Assembly (NCBI RefSeq): GCF_001752395.1
Contig: NZ_MKEK01000001.1
Location: 2,409,147-2,473,146, forward strand
DNA from: Rheinheimera salexigens
GTDB lineage: Bacteria; Pseudomonadota; Gammaproteobacteria; Enterobacterales; Alteromonadaceae
Direction: 5' to 3'
Length of the DNA stretch: 64,000 nucleotides
In this document: positions 6,222 through 60,511 of the stretch, one piece after another
Numbering within the stretch: the first letter of the stretch is position 1
Layout of the letters: each line of letters opens with the position of its first letter
Program-made: the position numbers and the translations under genes
Notes under the pieces: generated by a model
What the model was told of the DNA's origin: nothing
Database searches by the model: none
Seen by the model: only the letters and a program-made list of their open reading frames with translations

Positions 6222-6340
6222 AAGCTGCATGAGCGTATAGAACGCTGATGCTTAGTAATGTGAGTTCAAGCGAATAGCGGCGTATTCTCCGAGGCCTGTT
6301 TCAGGTGTGTTTTGAAAATCATCACTGGTAAAAAGAAAAA

Positions 6341-11536: not shown

Positions 11537-11628
11537 GCATAACAAGTTGCTTAAACGGAAAAATAACAGTTGGCCATCGCTTCGCGATTATAGCCAACCA
11601 TTTTTATCCGCTTAGCAAGGCGTTAGGT
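11537..11628 (+). other. attC site of cassette 1
   Basis: Left core GCATAAC and right core GTTAGGT enclose an imperfect inverted repeat: AACAAGTTGCTTAAACGG pairs with CCGCTTAGCAAGGCGTT, and inner arms GTTGGC/GCCAAC close on CGCTTCGCG. About 92 bp. The cut would fall at G11622. Confidence 0.9.
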
Positions 11629-11949: not shown

Positions 11950-11966
11950 CATGAGCACAGTAAAAC

Positions 11967-13560
11967 CTAACACATATGAGCCTTCTCGGAGTCAATAGGT
12001 AAAGCCGCTCTTCTGGCCGCGCTAGCGGCCAGTTTGTTGTCCATCAGCAAGATACTCTGCTTCATCTGTCATCATGGTTGCCAGGCGATAGCCTGCAACA
12101 AACACATATAGGGGCTCTCTTATCTCACTCTCAGTGAGTGCCTGCTGATTTCAGCATCCTTGCTGACAGCAGGGGCACCAGACATTCATCGGTTAACCTG
12201 TTGCTGGCACTATTCAAGGCGACGGGCTTAAAGCCAGTTAGTTTCAGGCTCAGTACAGGTGCAAACCATCTTGCTGATGGTAATGCGCGGCGACAAGGTG
12301 TCTAATCAAGCGCGCTGGCTACGGCAGTGTGCCAGAAGGCCGGTGGTTCAGCATGTTGCTATTGGCTACCAGCCTTCATTTGAGCATCAGCCATGGTGTT
12401 CCAGTTAGACGTTCAGCTCACCTTGTCCCGCGACTTAACACGTTAAGAAACGTTCTTCATTGAACACCTTCTGATTTTTTAGCATGTAGTAAACACAACG
12501 GCCAATTTTATGCGCGAGCGCGGAGAGTGCTTTGGCTTTGCTCATGCGCTTTTGTAGCTTGAGTAAGTAAGATTTGGCTTTGTCGTTACCGCGCAGATAA
12601 AGCACAGCAATCTCACCGAAGGCCCACTTCAAATGCGCATTGCCAATTTTATTACCCTGAGTGCCATAGCTTTTACCCGCAGATTCTGCTTTACACTTAA
12701 TCAACCGACTATATGAAGCAAAGTCTTGAACGGTATTAAAGCGTTCAATATGGCCAACTTCGTACAGGATAGTCAGTGCCAGAATGCGGCCAATACCGGG
12801 AAAACTGGTCAGGATATGGTAATCGTTGCCGTTATGATGCTTAGCATGTTTTTCAATAAAGCATTCAATAGAACTAAGTTCTTGGTTGTAAAAAGCAATG
12901 ATGTTTAAGTCCAGATCAACATTGCGCTGTACGAACTGATCATCAAAGCGATCTCGCATAGCTTCGCGGGCGTTAGGGTAGCGTAAATTTAGGTTGTTAG
13001 GGGGTAAATTGTACTGGCTAGTGGTGTTTTTTACATGTGCTTTTAAGTCGGCGCCATGGCGAACAATACGAGTGCGGCGGCGCAATAAATCACGGGCAGA
13101 GCGCATTTCTGGCGGATACACATAGGCCTGCGGGAAATTGCCACCGCGAATAAGGTGAGCAATTTTATAGGAATCTATGCGATCATTTTTTGCTTTGCCG
13201 CCATGAATGGCCTTCATATACAAAGCATGACCAAGAATAAAATCGATACCATGTTCAGCACATAAGTCGCTTACCCAGTACCAGCAGTGCATGCACTCAA
13301 CGCCAACGACAACATTACCGATATAAGGTGCTAAGATATCTAGTAATGGTTCTGGCAATGCTTTGATTTCACGGTGTAAGATGGTTTCACCGGCAGCATC
13401 CAGAATGCAAACGTATAAAGAGCGAGCATGCAAATCAATTCCACAATAGTACGGATGTTGTGTAGTATAAAATTTCATTGGGTCTTCTCCTTTTGGGTTT
13501 CGTCGCCTTTCAGCTTAGCCAATCTGGCAAAGCTGAGGGAGAAGGCTCAATGATTATCAA
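11967..13560 (-). mobile_element. IS1111-type IS110-superfamily element, copy 1
   Basis: 1,594 bp shared with 56043-57636 (inverted), from CTAACACATATG to ATGATTATCAA. It has subterminal inverted repeats (TGAGCCTTCTC about 10 bases inside each end), no target duplication, an 82-base region upstream of the transposase and about 465 bases of non-coding sequence downstream. Subterminal repeats plus a long 3' non-coding region are the IS1111-group layout, in which a guide (seek/bridge) RNA is made from the non-coding end. It sits in an attC site, transposase opposite to the cassettes. The non-coding part is 11967-12434. Confidence 0.85.
12435..13478 (-). CDS. IS110-superfamily (DEDD) transposase, copy 1
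   Basis: 347 residues, identical in sequence to the copy at 56125-57168. N-terminal RuvC-like DEDD domain: D15 (CGIDLHARS), E near residue 60 (VVGVECMHCWY), and KNDRIDSYKIA carrying the last Asp residues. The C-terminal Tnp20 part has SFPGIGRILALTILYEVG and the conserved SAGKSYGTQGNKIGN segment containing the catalytic Ser. Enzymes of this type recombine a circular element with target DNA using an element-encoded guide RNA. Intact and probably active given two identical copies. ATG at 13478 is preceded by AAAAGGAGAAGACCC on its strand. Confidence 0.92.
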   Translation of the reverse strand: MKFYTTQHPYYCGIDLHARSLYVCILDAAGETILHREIKALPEPLLDILAPYIGNVVVGVECMHCWYWVSDLCAEHGIDFILGHALYMKAIHGGKAKNDRIDSYKIAHLIRGGNFPQAYVYPPEMRSARDLLRRRTRIVRHGADLKAHVKNTTSQYNLPPNNLNLRYPNAREAMRDRFDDQFVQRNVDLDLNIIAFYNQELSSIECFIEKHAKHHNGNDYHILTSFPGIGRILALTILYEVGHIERFNTVQDFASYSRLIKCKAESAGKSYGTQGNKIGNAHLKWAFGEIAVLYLRGNDKAKSYLLKLQKRMSKAKALSALAHKIGRCVYYMLKNQKVFNEERFLTC

Positions 13561-13790
13561 ACGGCTGCACCGGACAAATTTCTGCTGTCACCTTTTGTGC
13601 AAAAACACGCACAAAAGCCGCCATCAAAAATTTGCGCGGTGAGCCGGGCGTTCTGCTAACACCTAAAAGCGGACTTTACAGCCTTAAAGTTGGAATGTCT
13701 GCAATTGGCACACAGCAGAAGTATCACTTGCGTCACCAAATTCATCAAATAGCTCATACTACTATCTGAACGGTAAATTGAGTTTAAGCA

Positions 13791-14621: not shown

Positions 14622-15419
14622 TTAACTCCAGATAAATTTATCCCAAATCTTCGTATGGATCATCCATCTGCATAATCTTACATGTTTTAATCTAGGCCTT
14701 CTGCTTGGCTTATTTTCATCTTCGATATAGTTTTCGCCACTTTTCAACCTATACGAACGCTGGTTTTCCTCAATAATATCAGTCACAGTTAGGTATCCGA
14801 AGTTATGAAGGTTTGCTAGTGCTTCAGAGATCACCTTAGTGCTCGCATTCGGTATCAGGCTTTGGCAAACATCATAAAGATTGGAATATTTTTCATCAAA
14901 GTACTGGTAGGTCTCTTTACCATGGTACTTATCCATAATATAAATGCCGTCGATATCGCCATATCGCCGCTCTAAATCAATACCTGTACTAGTGGCTCTA
15001 ACTATACATACCAAACCGCGAAACTCAGGATCAACAAATTCAGCCGCCATTAGGTCATACAGATAAAGTGCTATCTTAGTCTCTGCTAGCGTTAGTTGCT
15101 GGTTATGTAGAACGTTTTTAATGTAGTAGTCTCTGTCAGCACTAGCCCAGTGGTTTAGGTTAGCTCCCCGATTTTTGACCTCTGCTTTTTTCTTTGCACG
15201 ACGCCCTATAGGTTCGCTAGTATTACTAGGCTCTTCATCATTGTCTTTATCCTCAGAATCCTGAGTCTTTTTTGCGAAAAATCCTTTTTTAAGATAAAGC
15301 CACAAGCTCGGCCTTTCGCAGCTATCCGGAAGAACCCAAATAGGGTCATCAAAAGTGCCAACTCTAGATTTTTTCTTCACTTCAACGCTACCTCGGCGAG
15401 AATTGCCAATCTGATTCAA
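14622..15419 (-). CDS. Hypothetical protein of a replicon-like element
   Basis: 265 residues, basic and charged, no membrane segment. A low-complexity acidic linker (SEDKDNDEEPSN) followed by a basic patch (GRRAKKKAEVKNRG) splits an N-terminal part from a C-terminal helical domain; IALYLYDLMAAEF and SEALANLHNFGYLTVTDII look like a winged-helix replication or regulatory fold. I know no family for it. It is divergent from the DUF3987 gene across about 500 AT-rich bases and could regulate or help replicate that element. Confidence 0.6.
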   Translation of the reverse strand: MNQIGNSRRGSVEVKKKSRVGTFDDPIWVLPDSCERPSLWLYLKKGFFAKKTQDSEDKDNDEEPSNTSEPIGRRAKKKAEVKNRGANLNHWASADRDYYIKNVLHNQQLTLAETKIALYLYDLMAAEFVDPEFRGLVCIVRATSTGIDLERRYGDIDGIYIMDKYHGKETYQYFDEKYSNLYDVCQSLIPNASTKVISEALANLHNFGYLTVTDIIEENQRSYRLKSGENYIEDENKPSRRPRLKHVRLCRWMIHTKIWDKFIWS

Positions 15420-52111: not shown

Positions 52112-53266
52112 ATGGTTAACAATAGCATAACTTTTATAGGCTTAGATACTCACAAAGAGTTCTTTGAAGTGGCTTATATTGAAGACAATCGTGAGGCAAA
52201 ACCCATCAGCCTGGGCCGGATTAACGGCACTAAACCGGCACTGCAAAAACTAGTGCGACAGTTTGAATCAAAACATCCTAGCTCTACCCTGCATTTCGTC
52301 TATGAAGCAGGCCCTTGTGGTTACTGGATTTATCGCTTTTTAACCAGTTTAGGTCATTGTTGTTATGTCGTAGCACCGTCGTTAATTCCTAAAAAAGCCG
52401 GTGAGCGGGTGAAAACCGATAAACGTGATGCGGTAAAACTGGCGTTGTTGCTACGTTCAGGCGATATGGCCCCTATCTATGTGCCCGAGCCAGAAGATGA
52501 AGCGATGCGTGATTTATCACGTGCCCGTGAAACGGCGATGAAGGATTTAAAAGACGCCAAGTATCAGCTTAAAGCCATGCTGCTTCGCAACAACATCCGC
52601 TGTGAGATACAAGATAATTGGTCAGCTAAACATCTGCGCTGGCTCACTGAACTAATATTACCGCACCCTTCACAACAGATTGTTTTACAGGAAGCTATTC
52701 AAACCATTACCGAGCGTATTCGTCGCCTGGAGCCGCTGGATAACGAACTCAGTTACCATGTGAAAAACTGGCGTTACTATCCTGTAGTGAAAGCCATTCA
52801 GGCCATGCGCGGTGTGCGTTTATTAGTGGCTGTTGGCGTCATTGCCGAGCTGGGTGATTTATCCCGCTTCGACCACCCCAGAAAACTAATGAGCTACCTC
52901 GGCTTAGTCCCCTCTGAGCATTCCAGTGGCGGTAAACGCAGGCAAGGTGGCATTACGCGAACGGGTAACACCCGTGCCAGGCGCTTACTGGTTGAAGGTG
53001 CTCATACCTATCGTTATGCCGCCAATGTCTCGACGGAGTTGCAAAAGCGACAGGAAAGCCTGAGCAAAGAAATCGTCGACATCGCCTGGCAAGCGCAGCT
53101 TAGATTGTGCCGGCGTTATCAGCGGTTAATGAAGCGCGGCAAACACTACAACTTAGTGGTCACGGCCATCGCTCGAGAGATGATTGCCTATATCTGGGCC
53201 ATCTCAAGAGAAGTCGTGCTGACACCGGTTAATCCGGCCAAACGGTTATCCAGGGTGCCAGCATGA
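52112..53266 (+). CDS. IS110-superfamily transposase of the IS1111 group (element 2)
   Basis: 384 residues. DEDD domain with FIGLDTHKEFFEV (first Asp), HFVYEAGPCGYWI (Glu) and GERVKTDKRDAVKLALLL (last two Asp); C-terminal Tnp20 with IQAMRGVRLLVAVGVIAELG and YLGLVPSEHSSGGKRRQGG (catalytic Ser). No sequence identity beyond fold to the other IS110-type transposase in the window. Complete and in frame, with CGGAGGTCAGC before ATG. Confidence 0.93.
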   Translation: MVNNSITFIGLDTHKEFFEVAYIEDNREAKPISLGRINGTKPALQKLVRQFESKHPSSTLHFVYEAGPCGYWIYRFLTSLGHCCYVVAPSLIPKKAGERVKTDKRDAVKLALLLRSGDMAPIYVPEPEDEAMRDLSRARETAMKDLKDAKYQLKAMLLRNNIRCEIQDNWSAKHLRWLTELILPHPSQQIVLQEAIQTITERIRRLEPLDNELSYHVKNWRYYPVVKAIQAMRGVRLLVAVGVIAELGDLSRFDHPRKLMSYLGLVPSEHSSGGKRRQGGITRTGNTRARRLLVEGAHTYRYAANVSTELQKRQESLSKEIVDIAWQAQLRLCRRYQRLMKRGKHYNLVVTAIAREMIAYIWAISREVVLTPVNPAKRLSRVPA

Positions 53267-53317: not shown

Positions 53318-54856
53318 CTATCCTTGCTTTATGTTCCAAGGTAACAGTGGTTCTAGATTATCAGGCTGCTCAGCTAGGTGCTGTAAGCAAGTAGAAATAT
53401 AGTCATGCACCATAATATCGTTGGCCTTTGCCGTTTCAACAAGACTATACAGTATGGCACTGGCATGGGCGCCCTTGCTGGTGTTTGAGAACAGCCAGTT
53501 TTTTCGACCTATTACGAATGGCTTTATTGCTCGCTCGGCGCGGTTGTTATCAATACTGAGTCTGCCATCTTCTAGGTAACGCCGGAACTTTTCAAACTGA
53601 TTTATCCCATAGCTAATGGCTTTACCCAGCGGTATTTTCGGTGGCATTTTGTCTTGATGCTTTATCAGCCACTGATACAATTCATCCACTATCGGCTTGG
53701 CTTTTTGCTGCCTAATGTTGAATTTTTCTTCAGCCGTTTTATCTTTAATGGCTTGCTCTATGCCGTACAGCTTACCAATGAGGTTCAGTACCACGTCTGC
53801 TTTACCCGTTTTCTTATTATCTCCTTTGGCTTCGATGAATTTCCGGCGTATATGCGCAAGACACGCAACCAGTGTTGCCTGCGTTTGCTCGTAAGCTTTA
53901 TAACCATCAACCTGCAGATACCCTTGATAACCTGCAAGAAAATCAACAGTACATTGGCCTGCTCGGCTATTGTTATAGTCAAATAATACAATATTGCGGC
54001 CTTTACCGGCCTTATCATCACCACAACAATACACCCACATATAGCTTGTTGCTTTATCCGCGTTAATCACCTTTAACGGGGTTTCATCGCCATGAATAAC
54101 CGCTTGAGATAACAACACCTCTTTTAAGCGTTGATACAGTGGTGACATCAGTTCAGCACAACGTATCATCCAGCTGGACATGGTTTGTCTGCTCAATTCA
54201 ATTTCGATGTTAGCAAACAGTGTTTCTTGGCGATAAAGCGGTAAGCCAAACTGGTATTTACAGGTAATTATTTGACTTAGCAAACTGGGCGTGGCGATAC
54301 TTTTTGCAATGGCCGTTGCGGGCATAGGGGCGGTTTTTATCACACTTTCAATACCTTCACGCTCACAGTGGCGGCAGGTATATTTAGGGCGAATAGTTTT
54401 AATCACTTTGATATGCGCCGGTACAAATTCTAAGGCTTCACTGCTGCTTTCACCCATTTTGTGCAAGGGGCTTTGACAGCCATCACACACTTTGTCACTG
54501 TCATCTAAGTCAACAACTACGTTAACTCTGGGCAACTGCTTTGGCAGTGGTGTGCGTTTAGGCTTGGTTTTGTCTTTCTTTACTAAGGGAGACGCCGCTA
54601 ATAGCGCGTTATCATGTTCATCAAGCGTTTCTTCCGCTTCATTGAAGACCTCATCTGCGCCTGGCATTTTTTCTGATTTCTTGGCGTACTCTTTGGCAAG
54701 CTTGGCGTTGTAGGCTGCAAGTAACTCATGAATTTGTGCGTCTTTCTTAGCCAATTCTTCGTCTTTTTTTGCCACAACAAGGTGCAACTCAAGCAGCATA
54801 CGCTTGAGTTGCTCTGGGTCGTCAGGTAATGAGTGGGCATCAATTTTCATGGCCAC
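53318..54856 (-). CDS. tnpC: IS66 transposase TnpC
   Basis: 512 residues. N-terminal leucine-zipper-like coiled coil (PDDPEQLKRMLLELHLVVAKK), zinc ribbon (VCDGCQSPLHKMGES, CRHCERE), DDE core with VIHGDETPLKVI, LQVDGYKAYEQ and NNRAERAIKPFVIGR, and the IS66 C-terminus ending LEPLLPWNI. Intact, the catalytic subunit of IS66. Confidence 0.95.
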   Translation of the reverse strand: MAMKIDAHSLPDDPEQLKRMLLELHLVVAKKDEELAKKDAQIHELLAAYNAKLAKEYAKKSEKMPGADEVFNEAEETLDEHDNALLAASPLVKKDKTKPKRTPLPKQLPRVNVVVDLDDSDKVCDGCQSPLHKMGESSSEALEFVPAHIKVIKTIRPKYTCRHCEREGIESVIKTAPMPATAIAKSIATPSLLSQIITCKYQFGLPLYRQETLFANIEIELSRQTMSSWMIRCAELMSPLYQRLKEVLLSQAVIHGDETPLKVINADKATSYMWVYCCGDDKAGKGRNIVLFDYNNSRAGQCTVDFLAGYQGYLQVDGYKAYEQTQATLVACLAHIRRKFIEAKGDNKKTGKADVVLNLIGKLYGIEQAIKDKTAEEKFNIRQQKAKPIVDELYQWLIKHQDKMPPKIPLGKAISYGINQFEKFRRYLEDGRLSIDNNRAERAIKPFVIGRKNWLFSNTSKGAHASAILYSLVETAKANDIMVHDYISTCLQHLAEQPDNLEPLLPWNIKQG

Positions 54857-54934
54857 AATCTAGCAGAATTTACTCGTATTTTCTTGCTGGCAGAGCAGAT
54901 AATTACTGGCGTGGTGGCAATGATCGTTGACTCG

Positions 54935-55294
54935 TCATTCGATCTCTTCTAGATCAGACTGATAGCGCAATGCTTGATGACCAAGCACATCATAACCCGA
55001 TAATAACCCAATAAGTTGTTGCTCGGTGAGCTCAAACTCCAGCTCATCTAATTGACTGGGCCATTTAAACTTATGCTTTTCTAATCGTTTGTACCACAAA
55101 GCAAAACCTGTTTTATCCCAGTACACTAACTTGAGCTTGTCTTTGGCTTTATTACAAAATAAAAATAATGCGCCAGTATAGACATCGCGTTTTAACTCGC
55201 TTTCAACGATAGCAACAAGTCCATCAATAGACTTTCGAAAGTCCACAACATCGCGGTGCAAGTAAATACTGTCGGGTTTAACGAACATTTTCAT
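54935..55294 (-). CDS. tnpB: IS66 accessory protein TnpB (Orf2)
   Basis: 119 residues of the IS66 Orf2 family: DSIYLHRDVVDFRKSIDGLV and LFLFCNKAKDKLKLVYWDKT and GFALWYKRLEKHKF are the usual blocks. Required for transposition together with TnpA and TnpC; exact role unclear. Start overlaps the tnpA stop by 4 bases. Confidence 0.95.
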   Translation of the reverse strand: MKMFVKPDSIYLHRDVVDFRKSIDGLVAIVESELKRDVYTGALFLFCNKAKDKLKLVYWDKTGFALWYKRLEKHKFKWPSQLDELEFELTEQQLIGLLSGYDVLGHQALRYQSDLEEIE

Positions 55295-55590
55295 TCGGCA
55301 AGCTCGCGTAATAATTGACTTAGGAAGGTGGCGGAGGTTGTTGTCGGCAAGCTGAGTGTTACATTGCCAATCGCAAGAGTGAACGGCTGTTGCTGCTCGA
55401 TAACGTCGATTTGTTTGGTGATTTTGGCACGAATAAAATGACCAGATGACGCACTAAGCTTGTTTCTTGTGGCATAAAACGTGTTTTTTGATAAAGCATG
55501 TTGTTGGCAATACTCAGCAATAGTTAAATCGCTAGTTTGTTGCTCTTCGATAATGTTGCGCCACTGCTCAAGGCTACGTGATTTCCTCAT
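55291..55590 (-). CDS. tnpA: IS66 accessory protein TnpA (Orf1)
   Basis: 99 residues with an N-terminal HTH (SLEQWRNIIEEQQTSDLTIA, EYCQQHALSKNTFYATRNKL) as in IS66 Orf1, then a hydrophobic C-terminal tail. Likely binds the IS ends. Start preceded by AGGAGATAATC. Confidence 0.92.
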   Translation of the reverse strand: MRKSRSLEQWRNIIEEQQTSDLTIAEYCQQHALSKNTFYATRNKLSASSGHFIRAKITKQIDVIEQQQPFTLAIGNVTLSLPTTTSATFLSQLLRELAE

Positions 55591-56042
55591 GATTATCTCC
55601 TCATTGAAACGTGGAAATAGCCTAAAGGATTTAACGAGTTATTGGCAGGTGCACTTTGCTAGACGCTTACATTGGATCAAGCAGCGGGTGTGGCACAACC
55701 ACCGACGGCGTTGCCTATAGGGATGTAGGTAAGGGGCGTGAGCAGGAGCGGAAGCTTTAGGATGGCAACAGTCTCACGCCTGTTGAACCTCGAACCTAGA
55801 CTGAAGACAGGTGCCACGGCGGAACAAGTAAGGTAGGCTCTGTTAGCGAAAGCTAATAATCCACGTATACCAGCATGACAACCGACGAACATTACCAGCT
55901 TCATCTAGTGCATTAACTCACTTTACTAGCAAAAATAATGGTTCTTTATTGAGCAGAAAATTACTCAATCTGCTTGACGTGGGGAGTCATACCAGACGCT
56001 TAGCTCACCGGCGCGACGTCAGGAGCGTCCGCGTGGAGCTTA

Positions 56043-57636
56043 TTGATAATCATTGAGCCTTCTCCCTCAGCTTTGCCAGATTGGCTAAGCTGAAAGGCGA
56101 CGAAACCCAAAAGGAGAAGACCCAATGAAATTTTATACTACACAACATCCGTACTATTGTGGAATTGATTTGCATGCTCGCTCTTTATACGTTTGCATTC
56201 TGGATGCTGCCGGTGAAACCATCTTACACCGTGAAATCAAAGCATTGCCAGAACCATTACTAGATATCTTAGCACCTTATATCGGTAATGTTGTCGTTGG
56301 CGTTGAGTGCATGCACTGCTGGTACTGGGTAAGCGACTTATGTGCTGAACATGGTATCGATTTTATTCTTGGTCATGCTTTGTATATGAAGGCCATTCAT
56401 GGCGGCAAAGCAAAAAATGATCGCATAGATTCCTATAAAATTGCTCACCTTATTCGCGGTGGCAATTTCCCGCAGGCCTATGTGTATCCGCCAGAAATGC
56501 GCTCTGCCCGTGATTTATTGCGCCGCCGCACTCGTATTGTTCGCCATGGCGCCGACTTAAAAGCACATGTAAAAAACACCACTAGCCAGTACAATTTACC
56601 CCCTAACAACCTAAATTTACGCTACCCTAACGCCCGCGAAGCTATGCGAGATCGCTTTGATGATCAGTTCGTACAGCGCAATGTTGATCTGGACTTAAAC
56701 ATCATTGCTTTTTACAACCAAGAACTTAGTTCTATTGAATGCTTTATTGAAAAACATGCTAAGCATCATAACGGCAACGATTACCATATCCTGACCAGTT
56801 TTCCCGGTATTGGCCGCATTCTGGCACTGACTATCCTGTACGAAGTTGGCCATATTGAACGCTTTAATACCGTTCAAGACTTTGCTTCATATAGTCGGTT
56901 GATTAAGTGTAAAGCAGAATCTGCGGGTAAAAGCTATGGCACTCAGGGTAATAAAATTGGCAATGCGCATTTGAAGTGGGCCTTCGGTGAGATTGCTGTG
57001 CTTTATCTGCGCGGTAACGACAAAGCCAAATCTTACTTACTCAAGCTACAAAAGCGCATGAGCAAAGCCAAAGCACTCTCCGCGCTCGCGCATAAAATTG
57101 GCCGTTGTGTTTACTACATGCTAAAAAATCAGAAGGTGTTCAATGAAGAACGTTTCTTAACGTGTTAAGTCGCGGGACAAGGTGAGCTGAACGTCTAACT
57201 GGAACACCATGGCTGATGCTCAAATGAAGGCTGGTAGCCAATAGCAACATGCTGAACCACCGGCCTTCTGGCACACTGCCGTAGCCAGCGCGCTTGATTA
57301 GACACCTTGTCGCCGCGCATTACCATCAGCAAGATGGTTTGCACCTGTACTGAGCCTGAAACTAACTGGCTTTAAGCCCGTCGCCTTGAATAGTGCCAGC
57401 AACAGGTTAACCGATGAATGTCTGGTGCCCCTGCTGTCAGCAAGGATGCTGAAATCAGCAGGCACTCACTGAGAGTGAGATAAGAGAGCCCCTATATGTG
57501 TTTGTTGCAGGCTATCGCCTGGCAACCATGATGACAGATGAAGCAGAGTATCTTGCTGATGGACAACAAACTGGCCGCTAGCGCGGCCAGAAGAGCGGCT
57601 TTACCTATTGACTCCGAGAAGGCTCATATGTGTTAG
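56043..57636 (+). mobile_element. IS1111-type IS110-superfamily element, copy 2
   Basis: Same 1,594-bp length and ends as copy 1 at 11967-13560, inverted relative to it. Subterminal IR TGAGCCTTCTC lies about 10 bases inside each end. Non-coding 57169-57604 has several foldable arms (ACTGGCCGC/GCGGCCAG near 57571; GCCTGGCAACC near 57521), the likely guide RNA region. Sits in the attC of cassette 4 at the same core position as copy 1, transposase opposite to the cassettes. Confidence 0.88.
56125..57168 (+). CDS. IS110-superfamily (DEDD) transposase, copy 2
   Basis: 347 residues, same protein sequence as 12435-13478. All DEDD and Ser-motif residues are intact (CGIDLHARS; KNDRIDSYK; GKSYGTQGNKIGN). 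AAAAGGAGAAGACCCA precedes ATG. The identity between copies 43 kb apart means recent transposition or gene conversion. Confidence 0.95.
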   Translation: MKFYTTQHPYYCGIDLHARSLYVCILDAAGETILHREIKALPEPLLDILAPYIGNVVVGVECMHCWYWVSDLCAEHGIDFILGHALYMKAIHGGKAKNDRIDSYKIAHLIRGGNFPQAYVYPPEMRSARDLLRRRTRIVRHGADLKAHVKNTTSQYNLPPNNLNLRYPNAREAMRDRFDDQFVQRNVDLDLNIIAFYNQELSSIECFIEKHAKHHNGNDYHILTSFPGIGRILALTILYEVGHIERFNTVQDFASYSRLIKCKAESAGKSYGTQGNKIGNAHLKWAFGEIAVLYLRGNDKAKSYLLKLQKRMSKAKALSALAHKIGRCVYYMLKNQKVFNEERFLTC

Positions 57637-58588
57637 ATTCATGGGTATCCAAGAATACTGGATCTTTTGAAAGCCTATTTTCAATTTCAGTAGCATCTAG
57701 ACCTTTTGCTAGCTTTAAATACGAATCTGCTTCACTCTCCGAACCCATAGATTTGTGAAGTCTTGCAATATTATAGAATGCAATAGCTTTAGACCCTTCG
57801 TGAATAGCTTCAATATCACTGATAACCTTTAAAATAGAAATGGTATCGATCTTTACTGAATCTTCGCATTTCAAAGCTTCAGCAGCCAGAAGGTCTGCTT
57901 CAACCCAATACCGTCTGCTTGCATTTGAATTCAGATACTCTTTCGCTTTTTCGGGATAGCCATACATTGAAAGCGCTGATGCAATTTCGTGTCTCTGTTC
58001 CCCGCCAATAGAGCGACCAAGAACAAACCTTTTAAACATCAAAGGGAGCGCTTTCCTGCCACGTTTCGTTGACATTAAAAAGGCGAAAATTCCTGCATAT
58101 GCTGCAATTAACGAAATGAATATTGGCTCCTTTTTATCGCCTTTGTTGTAACCAATTATTTTCCCAACCACCCCTTTTCCCCTAAGAGAAATTGCAGCAC
58201 CGCCTGACTGTGGCGAAGTAGCTCTATACATAACGGAAACATTGGCACCCTCACTTGGATTGAGCCCATCAATTCTCAGAGTAATTGAGTTGTCTTTTAC
58301 TTCTTTCGTATGCGAAATTGCGGTATCAATAGCTATTCGGGAGCGCTCGATCACTTCATCGGAAAAGCTGACTACGAGAACGACATCTTCAATTATTTTG
58401 TCACCAGAATTCTTTATCTCAACCTGCTGGATAAATAAAGAATTGCTGGGCTCATCAAAAGGTATGCTCTGTATAGAGTTATAGGTGAGCTCGGCCTTTT
58501 CCGTTTGCCACCAAAATAATGACATTCCGGTTACTATGGTAACAAGCCCTGTAACAAGGGCCGTTGCAATAATAGATTTCCAATTCAT
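57605..58588 (-). CDS. Cassette 4: membrane protein with TPR-like C-terminus, end altered by an IS
   Basis: 327 residues. N-terminal transmembrane helix (IIATALVTGLVTIVTGMSLFW), an extracytoplasmic beta-rich domain of about 120 residues (VEIKNSGDKIIEDVVLVVSF), a second helix (PIFISLIAAYAGIFAFLMS) and a cytoplasmic helical part with TPR-like repeats (ALSMYGYPEKAKEYLN, NIARLHKSMGSESEADSYL). No family recognised. The last nine residues (NTYEPSRSQ) come from the IS end; without it the frame would run about 16 codons into attC before a stop. Confidence 0.75.
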   Translation of the reverse strand: MNWKSIIATALVTGLVTIVTGMSLFWWQTEKAELTYNSIQSIPFDEPSNSLFIQQVEIKNSGDKIIEDVVLVVSFSDEVIERSRIAIDTAISHTKEVKDNSITLRIDGLNPSEGANVSVMYRATSPQSGGAAISLRGKGVVGKIIGYNKGDKKEPIFISLIAAYAGIFAFLMSTKRGRKALPLMFKRFVLGRSIGGEQRHEIASALSMYGYPEKAKEYLNSNASRRYWVEADLLAAEALKCEDSVKIDTISILKVISDIEAIHEGSKAIAFYNIARLHKSMGSESEADSYLKLAKGLDATEIENRLSKDPVFLDTHESNTYEPSRSQ

Positions 58589-58607: not shown

Positions 58608-58697
58608 ATCTAACGCCCCGCTAAACATCGAGCGTTAGCGAGTCCGGTGGAGGCCACGCCTTTTGTGGCCGGAACGAATTTGAGCGGTTTGTTATGT
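58608..58697 (-). other. attC site of cassette 3
   Basis: Minus strand: left core ACATAAC, AACAAACCGCTCAAATTCG pairing with CGATGTTTAGCGGGGCGTT, loop arms GGCCACAAAAGGCGTGGCC, right core GTTAGAT. About 90 bp; a classic attC. Confidence 0.92.
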
Positions 58698-58700
58698 GAT

Positions 58701-59438
58701 TTATAGTGCACGACTTAAATCAACCGTATAGCCTGCATGCTGTAGCTCTTTTGCTATATCCATTTTCCACGCACCACGATCATCTAAATCAATATACACA
58801 ACTCCGCTAATATCATTCGGGGTTTCAACGCCACCCTTGACGAGAGCTGTAACTTTAGAGCGCCCCAGTCGCCCAATGAAATATCCATGCTCAAACACTA
58901 CATTCTGACGCGCCCTCGGCTTATTTTCTTCCCCTGCTTTTGAACCAACATCACATGGCGTGTATAAAACAATAGCGTACCCAACGTCACCGTAAGACTC
59001 GATTTTTTCAATTATGGTTTTACTTGAGCTTGCCTGCTCATGAAGAATTATTGGATTTAGACCAATCTGCTCAATAAACCGAGCCAAAGTTAATTTAGCT
59101 AGATCGTCGTGTCCGTGAACAATAAAAACCTTTGGATTATTGCCGCTCTGAGATGCGACCAGCTTAGGTTCCTTTTTTCCATCTGACTTTTTGACGATCA
59201 TTTGATAGCCTGCCGGTATAGATCCCAGACCTTCATGAAATCCAGGGTCTATAACTTCGTACAGCTCAATGCCACCATTGGACATTTTTCGCTCAACAAA
59301 ATCACCTGACTCAATCAGAATATCGGATTGCTGAATGAATATTTTATTCTTTTGAACACTGGCAGGGATGTCCGCATGCTCTTCGCCACTAGAGCGCATC
59401 ACTCTTACTCTATCATTGAGCATGTCTTTAAATGGCAT
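58701..59438 (-). CDS. Cassette 3: TIR-like nucleotide-binding protein (CAP12/Pycsar effector type, PF10137)
   Basis: 245 residues from ATG 59438 (GGAGTAGAT upstream); the longer frame to 59591 only translates the preceding attC. Residues 1-100 are an extra N-terminal domain. Residues 103-245 are the TIR-like domain: PKVFIVHGHDDLAKLTLARF, LHEQASSSKTIIEK, GYAIVLYTPCDVG, and NVVFEHGYFIGRLGR with E183 as the likely catalytic Glu. In CBASS and Pycsar systems this domain cleaves NAD+ on sensing a cyclic nucleotide or phage. No cyclase gene is nearby, so any defence role is inference. Confidence 0.85.
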   Translation of the reverse strand: MPFKDMLNDRVRVMRSSGEEHADIPASVQKNKIFIQQSDILIESGDFVERKMSNGGIELYEVIDPGFHEGLGSIPAGYQMIVKKSDGKKEPKLVASQSGNNPKVFIVHGHDDLAKLTLARFIEQIGLNPIILHEQASSSKTIIEKIESYGDVGYAIVLYTPCDVGSKAGEENKPRARQNVVFEHGYFIGRLGRSKVTALVKGGVETPNDISGVVYIDLDDRGAWKMDIAKELQHAGYTVDLSRAL

Positions 59439-59462
59439 ATCTACTCCTTGATTGGTTTGATC

Positions 59463-59559
59463 ACATAACCCCGCGTTAAGGTGTGACGCACGTTTGGCTA
59501 CACTTGAGCAAAGCGAAAATGCCAAGCGTAAGGAATCACTCTTAAACGCTTTGTTATAC
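59463..59559 (-). other. attC site of cassette 2 of the minus array
   Basis: Left core GTATAAC, then AACAAAGCGTTTAAGAGTG pairing with CACACCTTAACGCGGGGTT, right core GTTATGT. About 97 bp. The stop codon TAA of the DUF6236 gene lies within the left core. Confidence 0.92.
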
Positions 59560-60411
59560 GAGTTCTCTTTGGATACTCGAAAGATATGCAAAATGTTTGT
59601 ACTCAGCGGGTATGTTACGTCCGACGCCCAATTCGCGATAGCTAAATTTCAGCGCACAAGCCCCTAAAGCTGCCACATTGAGCCCCTGCATATATGGTTG
59701 ATAATTTTCTGGCAAATAACCATTGCCCAGCATCATTGCATTACTTACACCAAACCACGGGTCAGTCGCTATTGCCGTTAAAGAACGTTTAACTCTTTGA
59801 AATCCAGTTTCTTTCATCACGCGATTGAAATCGTTTAAATCACGATGAAGTTTATTGATTGCTTTATTCTTTCGCTTAGGTATATCTTGGCTTGTAACTA
59901 CAGCATCTACAATTGAATCCATAGCATCACGTAATGCTAAAAGCTCTGGCAACCTTTTACTTTTAAAATCAATAACTTCTGAAAGGGGGACATCACCTGT
60001 TGGAATTTGAATAGCATTGTACAATTCAAATTCTAAACACCCTTGTGTCTTTGCATATTGCTGAGGAATAATTAATTGATCCGTTGGCTGGGCAATACTC
60101 CACTCTTCATTTTTAACTTTGTTATTTTCTTCGTAAGCAGCCATTTGAGTTGCTAGTGGTAAAAATCCATTTTGATCACCTCGTAACTCACGAAATCGTA
60201 CTGCTGTAGACTTAGCAATCCCTTCCTGAATTAAGAAGTCAACATCCTGACCACCACCAATATGAATCATATTGTTTGTTGGATAATCTATCTTGTCCCA
60301 AAAAAGAAGGTAATTTCTGATATTTATAGGTTCAACAGAACCATTCATTTGTAATCCATGCCCATTATTCAAGATTGAATAATTTGGAGTAATTATTATA
60401 CCGCGTTCCAT
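59554..60411 (-). CDS. Cassette 2 of the minus array: DUF6236 family protein
   Basis: 285 residues, soluble. RGIIITPNYSILNNGHGLQM at the start, LLFWDKIDYPTNNMIHIGGG, and TDPWFGVSNAMMLGN near residue 220 fit the DUF6236 family by eye. Function unknown; the family appears in cassette and mobile contexts. AGGAGGCTAA precedes ATG. Stop is inside the attC core, as often seen in compact cassettes. Confidence 0.65.
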   Translation of the reverse strand: MERGIIITPNYSILNNGHGLQMNGSVEPINIRNYLLFWDKIDYPTNNMIHIGGGQDVDFLIQEGIAKSTAVRFRELRGDQNGFLPLATQMAAYEENNKVKNEEWSIAQPTDQLIIPQQYAKTQGCLEFELYNAIQIPTGDVPLSEVIDFKSKRLPELLALRDAMDSIVDAVVTSQDIPKRKNKAINKLHRDLNDFNRVMKETGFQRVKRSLTAIATDPWFGVSNAMMLGNGYLPENYQPYMQGLNVAALGACALKFSYRELGVGRNIPAEYKHFAYLSSIQRELV

Positions 60412-60425
60412 TTAGCCTCCTGCTC

Positions 60426-60511
60426 GTATAACGCTTAACATATGGGGATTTTAGGATCGCTTTGGGGCGAAGCCCAGCGAGTAAAATTCCCACCATAATG
60501 TTTTGTTATGT
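60426..60511 (-). other. attC site of cassette 1 of the minus array
   Basis: Left core ACATAAC, arms ATTATGGTGGGAATTTTA / TAAAATCCCCATATGTTAA, loop GGGCTTCGCCC, right core GTTATAC. About 86 bp. Confidence 0.9.

Follow-up and report, generated by a model that had tools for sequence, protein, structure and literature searches.

Why should two copies of one insertion sequence (IS) lie at the same place, and in the same orientation, within two attC recombination sites of a single chromosomal region? This question is raised by the 64,000-nucleotide stretch of Rheinheimera salexigens analyzed here (the window; G000:C1:2409147-2473146 of a 3,441,881-base genome in two contigs of 3,438,923 and 2,958 bases; Table 1). 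The original prediction that both copies occupy attCs in this uniform way is borne out. The two copies of this IS1111-type element have every letter the same over 1,583 bp, both lie just inside an R'' box, and they make up the single inverted repeat pair found in the window by repeat comparison (11964-13570 and 56033-57639). Given that the assembly of strain KH87T is a 454 assembly with gaps closed in silico (PMC5159575), their perfect identity could be partly a consensus effect. The genome holds four full copies; for the two outside the window, identity to the query is 98 and 99%. Being identical, inverted and 42.5 kb apart, copies 1 and 2 could invert the segment between them by recombination.

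Table 1 Features of the window, in positions of the 64,000-nucleotide stretch
Feature	Position	Strand	Remark
Integron integrase, 319 aa	10035..10994	-	TIGR02249 421 bits, cut-off 265
Intact attC of the cassette before that of copy 1	11537..11628	+	anchored score 16.8
R'' box ACCTAAC of attC split by copy 1	11965..11971	+	read from sequence
IS copy 1	11974..13556	-	1,583 bp by 7+3 ends
Transposase of copy 1, 347 aa	12435..13478	-	
Remainder of attC split by copy 1	13558..13656	+	anchored score 18.6
Remainder of attC split by copy 2	55992..56045	-	R' end degenerate
IS copy 2, ends set by empty site	56046-57630	+	TG on either side (56044-56045, 57631-57632)
IS copy 2	56047..57629	+	1,583 bp by 7+3 ends
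Left subterminal inverted repeat, copy 2	56054..56064	+	TGAGCCTTCTC
Transposase of copy 2, 347 aa, IS110/IS1111 type	56125..57168	+	PF01548, PF02371; NF033542 205 bits, cut-off 140
Putative RNA T segment	57358..57369	+	GAAACUAACUGG; CUAAC complements GTTAG of attC R'' box; placed solely on position and complementarity
Putative RNA B segment	57380..57393	+	GUCGCCUUGAAUAG; CUUG repeats attC left flank; tree test without support
Putative RNA donor segment, then covarying hairpin	57491..57526	+	UAUGUGUU repeats right IS end and target
Right subterminal inverted repeat, copy 2	57616..57626	+	GAGAAGGCTCA
R'' box ATCTAAC of attC split by copy 2	57632..57638	-	read from sequence
Intact attC-like site, copy 2 cluster	58609..58697	-	read by eye
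Intact attC, copy 2 cluster	60433..60511	-	anchored score 16.4

The element has the anatomy of the IS1111 family. Its DEDD transposase has a C-terminal Transposase_20 domain and a length within the family range of 330-350 aa, and D15, E61, D99 and D102 are invariant in all 79 transposases aligned (from 84 loci). The position of the C-terminal Ser-Gly motif reads Ser-Ala (S in 79/79, A in 78/79 aligned); PMC11187229 describes S(T)G in the family and, occasionally, TA. The subterminal inverted repeats are perfect and 11 bp long (11-13 bp in the family), and the stretch from the stop codon to the right IS end is non-coding for 464 bp, in line with the long 3' non-coding region of IS1111 elements. 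Remote protein similarity extends to IS621 (E 2e-4) and ISCro4 (E 1.3e-5). The wider family is very large, since the protein search scored only its 8,000 best candidates and all of these had E <= 1e-3. Directly beside copy 2 lie another IS110-type transposase gene (52112-53266, plus strand; 384 aa), whose product matches the TIGR-Tas endonuclease model weakly, and an IS66 element (53318-55590, minus strand).

In both window attCs the split point is just inside the R'' box. Copy 2 adjoins GTTAGAT, which is ATCTAAC on the minus strand, the very core it had been said to abut; for copy 1 the core is ACCTAAC. The transposase runs opposite to the cassettes at both sites, again as foreseen: copy 1 is on the minus strand within a plus-strand cassette array adjoining the integrase gene, and copy 2 is on the plus strand within a minus-strand cluster that has two more attC-like sites. 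The R' end of the copy 2 site reads GAC instead of AAC. Because a score that requires AAC gives this site only 7.0, and that of own copy L004 only 8.8 (18.6 and 18.8 for the other two own sites), these two are attCs by reading. So read, all four full genome copies lie at the same place and in the same orientation. The base pattern after the core is TTAG in the two occupied window attCs and TTAT in three intact ones, which is five sites only, and the larger locus set gave no rule for the base after GTTA.

Instead of inserting repeatedly, the IS could have spread through the movement of cassettes or through duplication, a route that agrees with its location in attCs and with the identity of the two window copies. 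The four occupied attCs of the genome, however, differ from each other on both sides of the IS, and we regard this route as extremely improbable.

In a search of the genome, the N-terminal integrase domain was found at three places: the window gene, 423098 and 2479912. The gene at G000:C1 423098 (L108) encodes a second such integron integrase, with 462 bits against TIGR02249, and the IS copy at 428962 is about 5.6 kb away from it; the genome paper mentions one integron (PMC5159575). The one at 2479912, outside the window and about 10 kb beyond the copy 2 cluster, scores 154 bits, short of the integron cut-off of 265. Next to copy 2, two minus-strand genes (58701-59591 and 59554-60411) encode a Cap12/Pycsar-type TIR protein (PF10137 132 bits; PADLOC candidate PDC-S35 277 bits) and a DUF6236 protein, and are likely a defence cassette. 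The 327-aa cassette open reading frame beside copy 2 (57605-58588, minus strand) had no Pfam, NCBIfam or PADLOC match at E 0.001.

Is this habit shared by relatives of the element? A scan of genome contigs gave 195 relatives, of which the best 80, from 28 named genera, form a set of 84 loci together with the four own copies. The left junction is TTGA in 83/84 loci and the right junction GTGTTA in 64 of the 69 that have a right end; with the four of four genome copies, these counts confirm that the placement exceeds chance. In the left flanks, YAACG occurs in 57/78 loci (387/1,641 control positions) and GTC in 53/78 (149/1,641), with both features in 43/78. An anchored attC score of at least 12 was reached by 52/79 loci against 172/708 controls, and of at least 14 by 39/79 against 90/708, where the controls include real attCs and the score misses some true attCs and passes some non-attC sites. 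The left flanks are thus enriched for attC features and, judged from these patterns, are mostly attC insertions. An unanchored palindrome test of the flanks, which was without power, was passed by 3/80. A search for an intact form of the attC of copy 1 matched only occupied sites (1/394 genomes of the order, 2/8 chosen genomes).

L094 has right-end-only footprints of this IS at 6337, 9038 and 14802-15075; two of these lie about 2.7 kb from each other in a stretch that is repeated, and the third includes part of the RNA region. In L093, a Catenovulum plasmid, there are two tandem right ends with a spacing of 22 bp, a pattern that would result from double use of a single IS end. Across the genus, about 40 right-end places came to light. 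A 33-bp right-end footprint by a single N lies near 4012 of L097 in an hsdM-like gene (by eye) and is absent from three relatives; it is either an old insertion outside attC or an assembly gap.

The exact insertion point depends on what an empty site looks like. The ends of copies 1 and 2 were set by the 7+3 bp rule quoted for IS1111 (PMC11187229), a family described as making no target duplication, and joining the flanks by this rule gives the empty site TTGAGTGTTA. This candidate has nine genome copies, none with both attC features, and GTCCN{8,16}TTGAGTGTTA was matched in 2/16 IS-host genomes, neither match being an attC by reading, so the flanks do not seem to join by the 7+3 rule here. 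Intact attCs of the same type read CTTG/TTARRY at the R'' box (the slash marks the insertion point). Among 42 attC sites, 25 have TTGTTA and 9 hold the IS by pattern, which leaves 8 of other kinds, L041 with a variant IS among them; TTG/TTA is therefore present in 25/32 unoccupied sites (the 42 less the 9 pattern-IS sites and L041). Close empty and occupied pairs are L132 (TTATTAATTAGCTTGTTATATG) with occupied L069, and L070 with occupied L034 and L079; the comparison is between attCs that resemble each other rather than between the occupied and empty forms of a single cassette.

Given that the empty attC reads TTG/TTA, the product of insertion is TG-[IS]-TG-TTA, which gives copy 1 a typical attC start, CCTAACAAACGG. 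An earlier placement of copy 2 at 56043-57636 (1,594 bp) was right in that both copies have equal lengths; because intact attCs have this empty site, the 1,594 bp include the target bases TTG and GTTAG, which both sites share, and by the 7+3 ends the IS is 1,583 bp long. The empty-site ends leave 14 nt between the repeats at the predicted circle junction, as against the published 7+3. The junction between the repeats would read TATG-TG-ATAATCAT by the empty-site ends and TAT-TAATCAT by 7+3. By eye, the predicted junction has TTGACT, 18 nt and GATAAT, a better promoter than the 7+3 junction.

What might bring the element to this point is suggested by its 3' non-coding region. Here UAUGUGUU repeats the right end, core and target, and the hairpin that follows covaries among 60 sequences. 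The conserved match near 57500 is TATGTGTT, to the right IS end and target. GTTTGTT, named earlier as an example of a guide segment in the same place, is not conserved, being present in only 13 of the 65 relatives with the motif (69 searched); it fits the empty site of copy 1, and its last letters are within the covarying hairpin stem. The right end and the RNA agree in 62/66 copies (3/69 gave no match) by a first pattern, which placed L062 and L091 wrongly, and in 61/61 copies by a stricter one (65 right ends scored). The right-end states TAT, TAG, TAA and ATG are each repeated in the RNA segment. TAG is found in seven copies, and the tree needs just one switch from TAT to TAG to account for them. 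In elements outside the clade, TAA (L112, L113) and ATG (L092, L114, L115) are likewise repeated in the RNA, the right ends of L114 and L115 being placed by eye; L110 and L111 gave no ends.

Farther upstream, at 57341-57412, the stem ACACCTG and CAGGT encloses a loop in which GAAACUAACUGG and CGCCUUGAAUAG flank a stretch of variable length. At the tip of this stem the bases differ between copies, with pairing mostly kept (32 sequences extracted, 30 of them distinct; the pattern missed 37/69). Within the loop, CUAAC at 57362-57366 and GCCUUG at 57383-57388 are short matches to attC, with the top-strand complement first. The original prediction was to be given up if the RNA matched neither flank; segments of the 3' non-coding region do match attC. 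By eye, no consistent match was found for a left-end guide within the clade. None of the Rfam families scored up to its gathering threshold in the window, which counts neither for nor against an RNA guide.

If the RNA reads the target, guide and target may be expected to vary together, and this was examined in 70 of the 84 loci, after leaving out 8 in which the motif or sufficient sequence was missing, 3 with a short flank and 3 duplicates. The B segment and attC agree at position -4 in 47/70 loci (against 34.2 under the null; shuffling gives p 0.0014, permutation of RNA haplotypes 0.0039 and 0.0057) and at -5 in 23/70 (p 0.020, 0.038, 0.047); among nine positions shuffled, only -10 was also below 0.05 (0.046). 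The -4 association finds no support when independent pairs are taken from the tree (0.8 in favor and 1.0 against, from 5 pairs), and it may come from shared ancestry of the IS and host attC. Both window copies mismatch the guide at -4. The weakness of this association on the tree is what one would expect if the transposase alone chose the site and the RNA matches were remnants or chance. Against such a choice by protein only, the right-end segment agrees in 61/61 copies, three more states are repeated inside or outside the clade, and PMC11187229 reports the non-coding region as needed in ISEc11. We consider protein-only choice very improbable. RNA guidance is supported because it is known in the family (seekRNA; Siddiquee 2024) and because the RNA segment changes with the right end.

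Does the guide suffice? In the IS-free window there are 60 TTGTTA sites, and by guide match the two occupied ones score 7 of 11, lower than 14 others. The genome has 18 occurrences of GCCTTGTTAG, none occupied; one lies in an attC (L167, 19.4) and 17 score 5.2-12.4. Guide match alone does not single out the occupied sites. These results speak against the idea that a few double-stranded bases around the core decide everything, with the attC consensus happening to hold CTTGTTARRY, although selection against gene hits could still explain them. The same idea draws support from the footprint in the hsdM-like gene (by eye), which suggests insertion outside attC, and from the flanks of L037, L038, L046 and L071, which score low and are not attC-like. 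We hold it to be a serious possibility, if a tentative one. The attC preference could come from selection against gene hits, from attC folding or from further attC sequence. That the clade reads attC as a structure, with the folded bottom strand or the L boxes recruiting the transposase-RNA complex and the short guide only setting the core, seems to us doubtful; if true, the clade would represent an RNA-guided recombinase that recognizes a DNA hairpin. The original prediction of guide-RNA-directed insertion into a structured site is supported in its first part, in that segments of the 3' non-coding region match the right end plus target and attC; that a structured site is needed is a conjecture.

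We think it very likely that this is an IS1111-family element whose DEDD transposase is aimed at attC by an RNA from its own 3' non-coding region. This RNA would pair both to the IS end and to attC. Insertion would take place at the R'' box, in the TG core of attC (...TG/TTARRY, bottom strand), and would leave the transposase gene facing against the cassettes. Circle excision, RNA processing, RNA-transposase binding and catalysis would proceed as in the family. More loosely, we suspect that attC offers a further cue, besides the short guide match, by which it is selected. The anatomy, insertion point, orientation, empty site, RNA segment tracking the right end and two-armed attC-matching loop are direct observations of this study.

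The closest known likeness is to the IS1111-attC group (ISPst6, ISKpn4, ISPa21, ISPa25), which shares the IS1111 anatomy, the use of one attC end in one orientation and a 3' non-coding RNA. The group and its seekRNA are already published, and ISKpn4 and ISPst6 seekRNAs match attC, as PMC11187229 states. All four own copies use one end of attC in one orientation, and relatives are enriched for this placement. The likeness to the named members is one of published description. Their names were absent among the plasmid matches listed (60 of 172; 60 of 238). Among the 60 of 172 plasmid records listed, transposase identities drop from at least 55% to 48, 38 and then about 33% or less, and no IS name is attached to the 12 records whose best place has 60-80% identity. 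No description of this clade was found in the literature covered, which was mostly open-access (PMC11187229, PMC11616780, PMC11208160, PMC11089894, PMC12444791, PMC3589745, PMC11322120).

As in the seekRNA system of ISEc11, ISPa11 and ISKpn4, where NCR-derived RNA is essential for ISEc11 (PMC11187229), the RNA lies downstream of the transposase gene and the top-strand complement is 5' of the bottom-strand match. Segments complementary to the top and bottom target strands, top first, are present in R. salexigens, as short matches to which the tree test lent no support. In contrast to that system as described there, the R. salexigens IS has longer ends, by the empty site, and Ser-Ala instead of Ser-Gly. 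With the IS621 bridge RNA, as described in PMC11208160, it has in common separate RNA loops that read target and donor, and a short core; it differs from IS621 in having the RNA at the 3' side and long subterminal repeats, and the protein similarity is remote. With its numerous natural insertions, more than one right-end state and well-defined targets in attC, the clade offers a ready set for decoding the donor and target letters of the RNA, and the same insertions suit the question of whether attC folding matters. The clade, for which no IS name was seen, is a large addition to those RNA-guided elements whose home is the integron and whose insertions divide cassette sites. The R. salexigens IS is a real element of the IS1111-attC type, and given that the attC habit is known from other members, it represents no new kind of system but a good further example.
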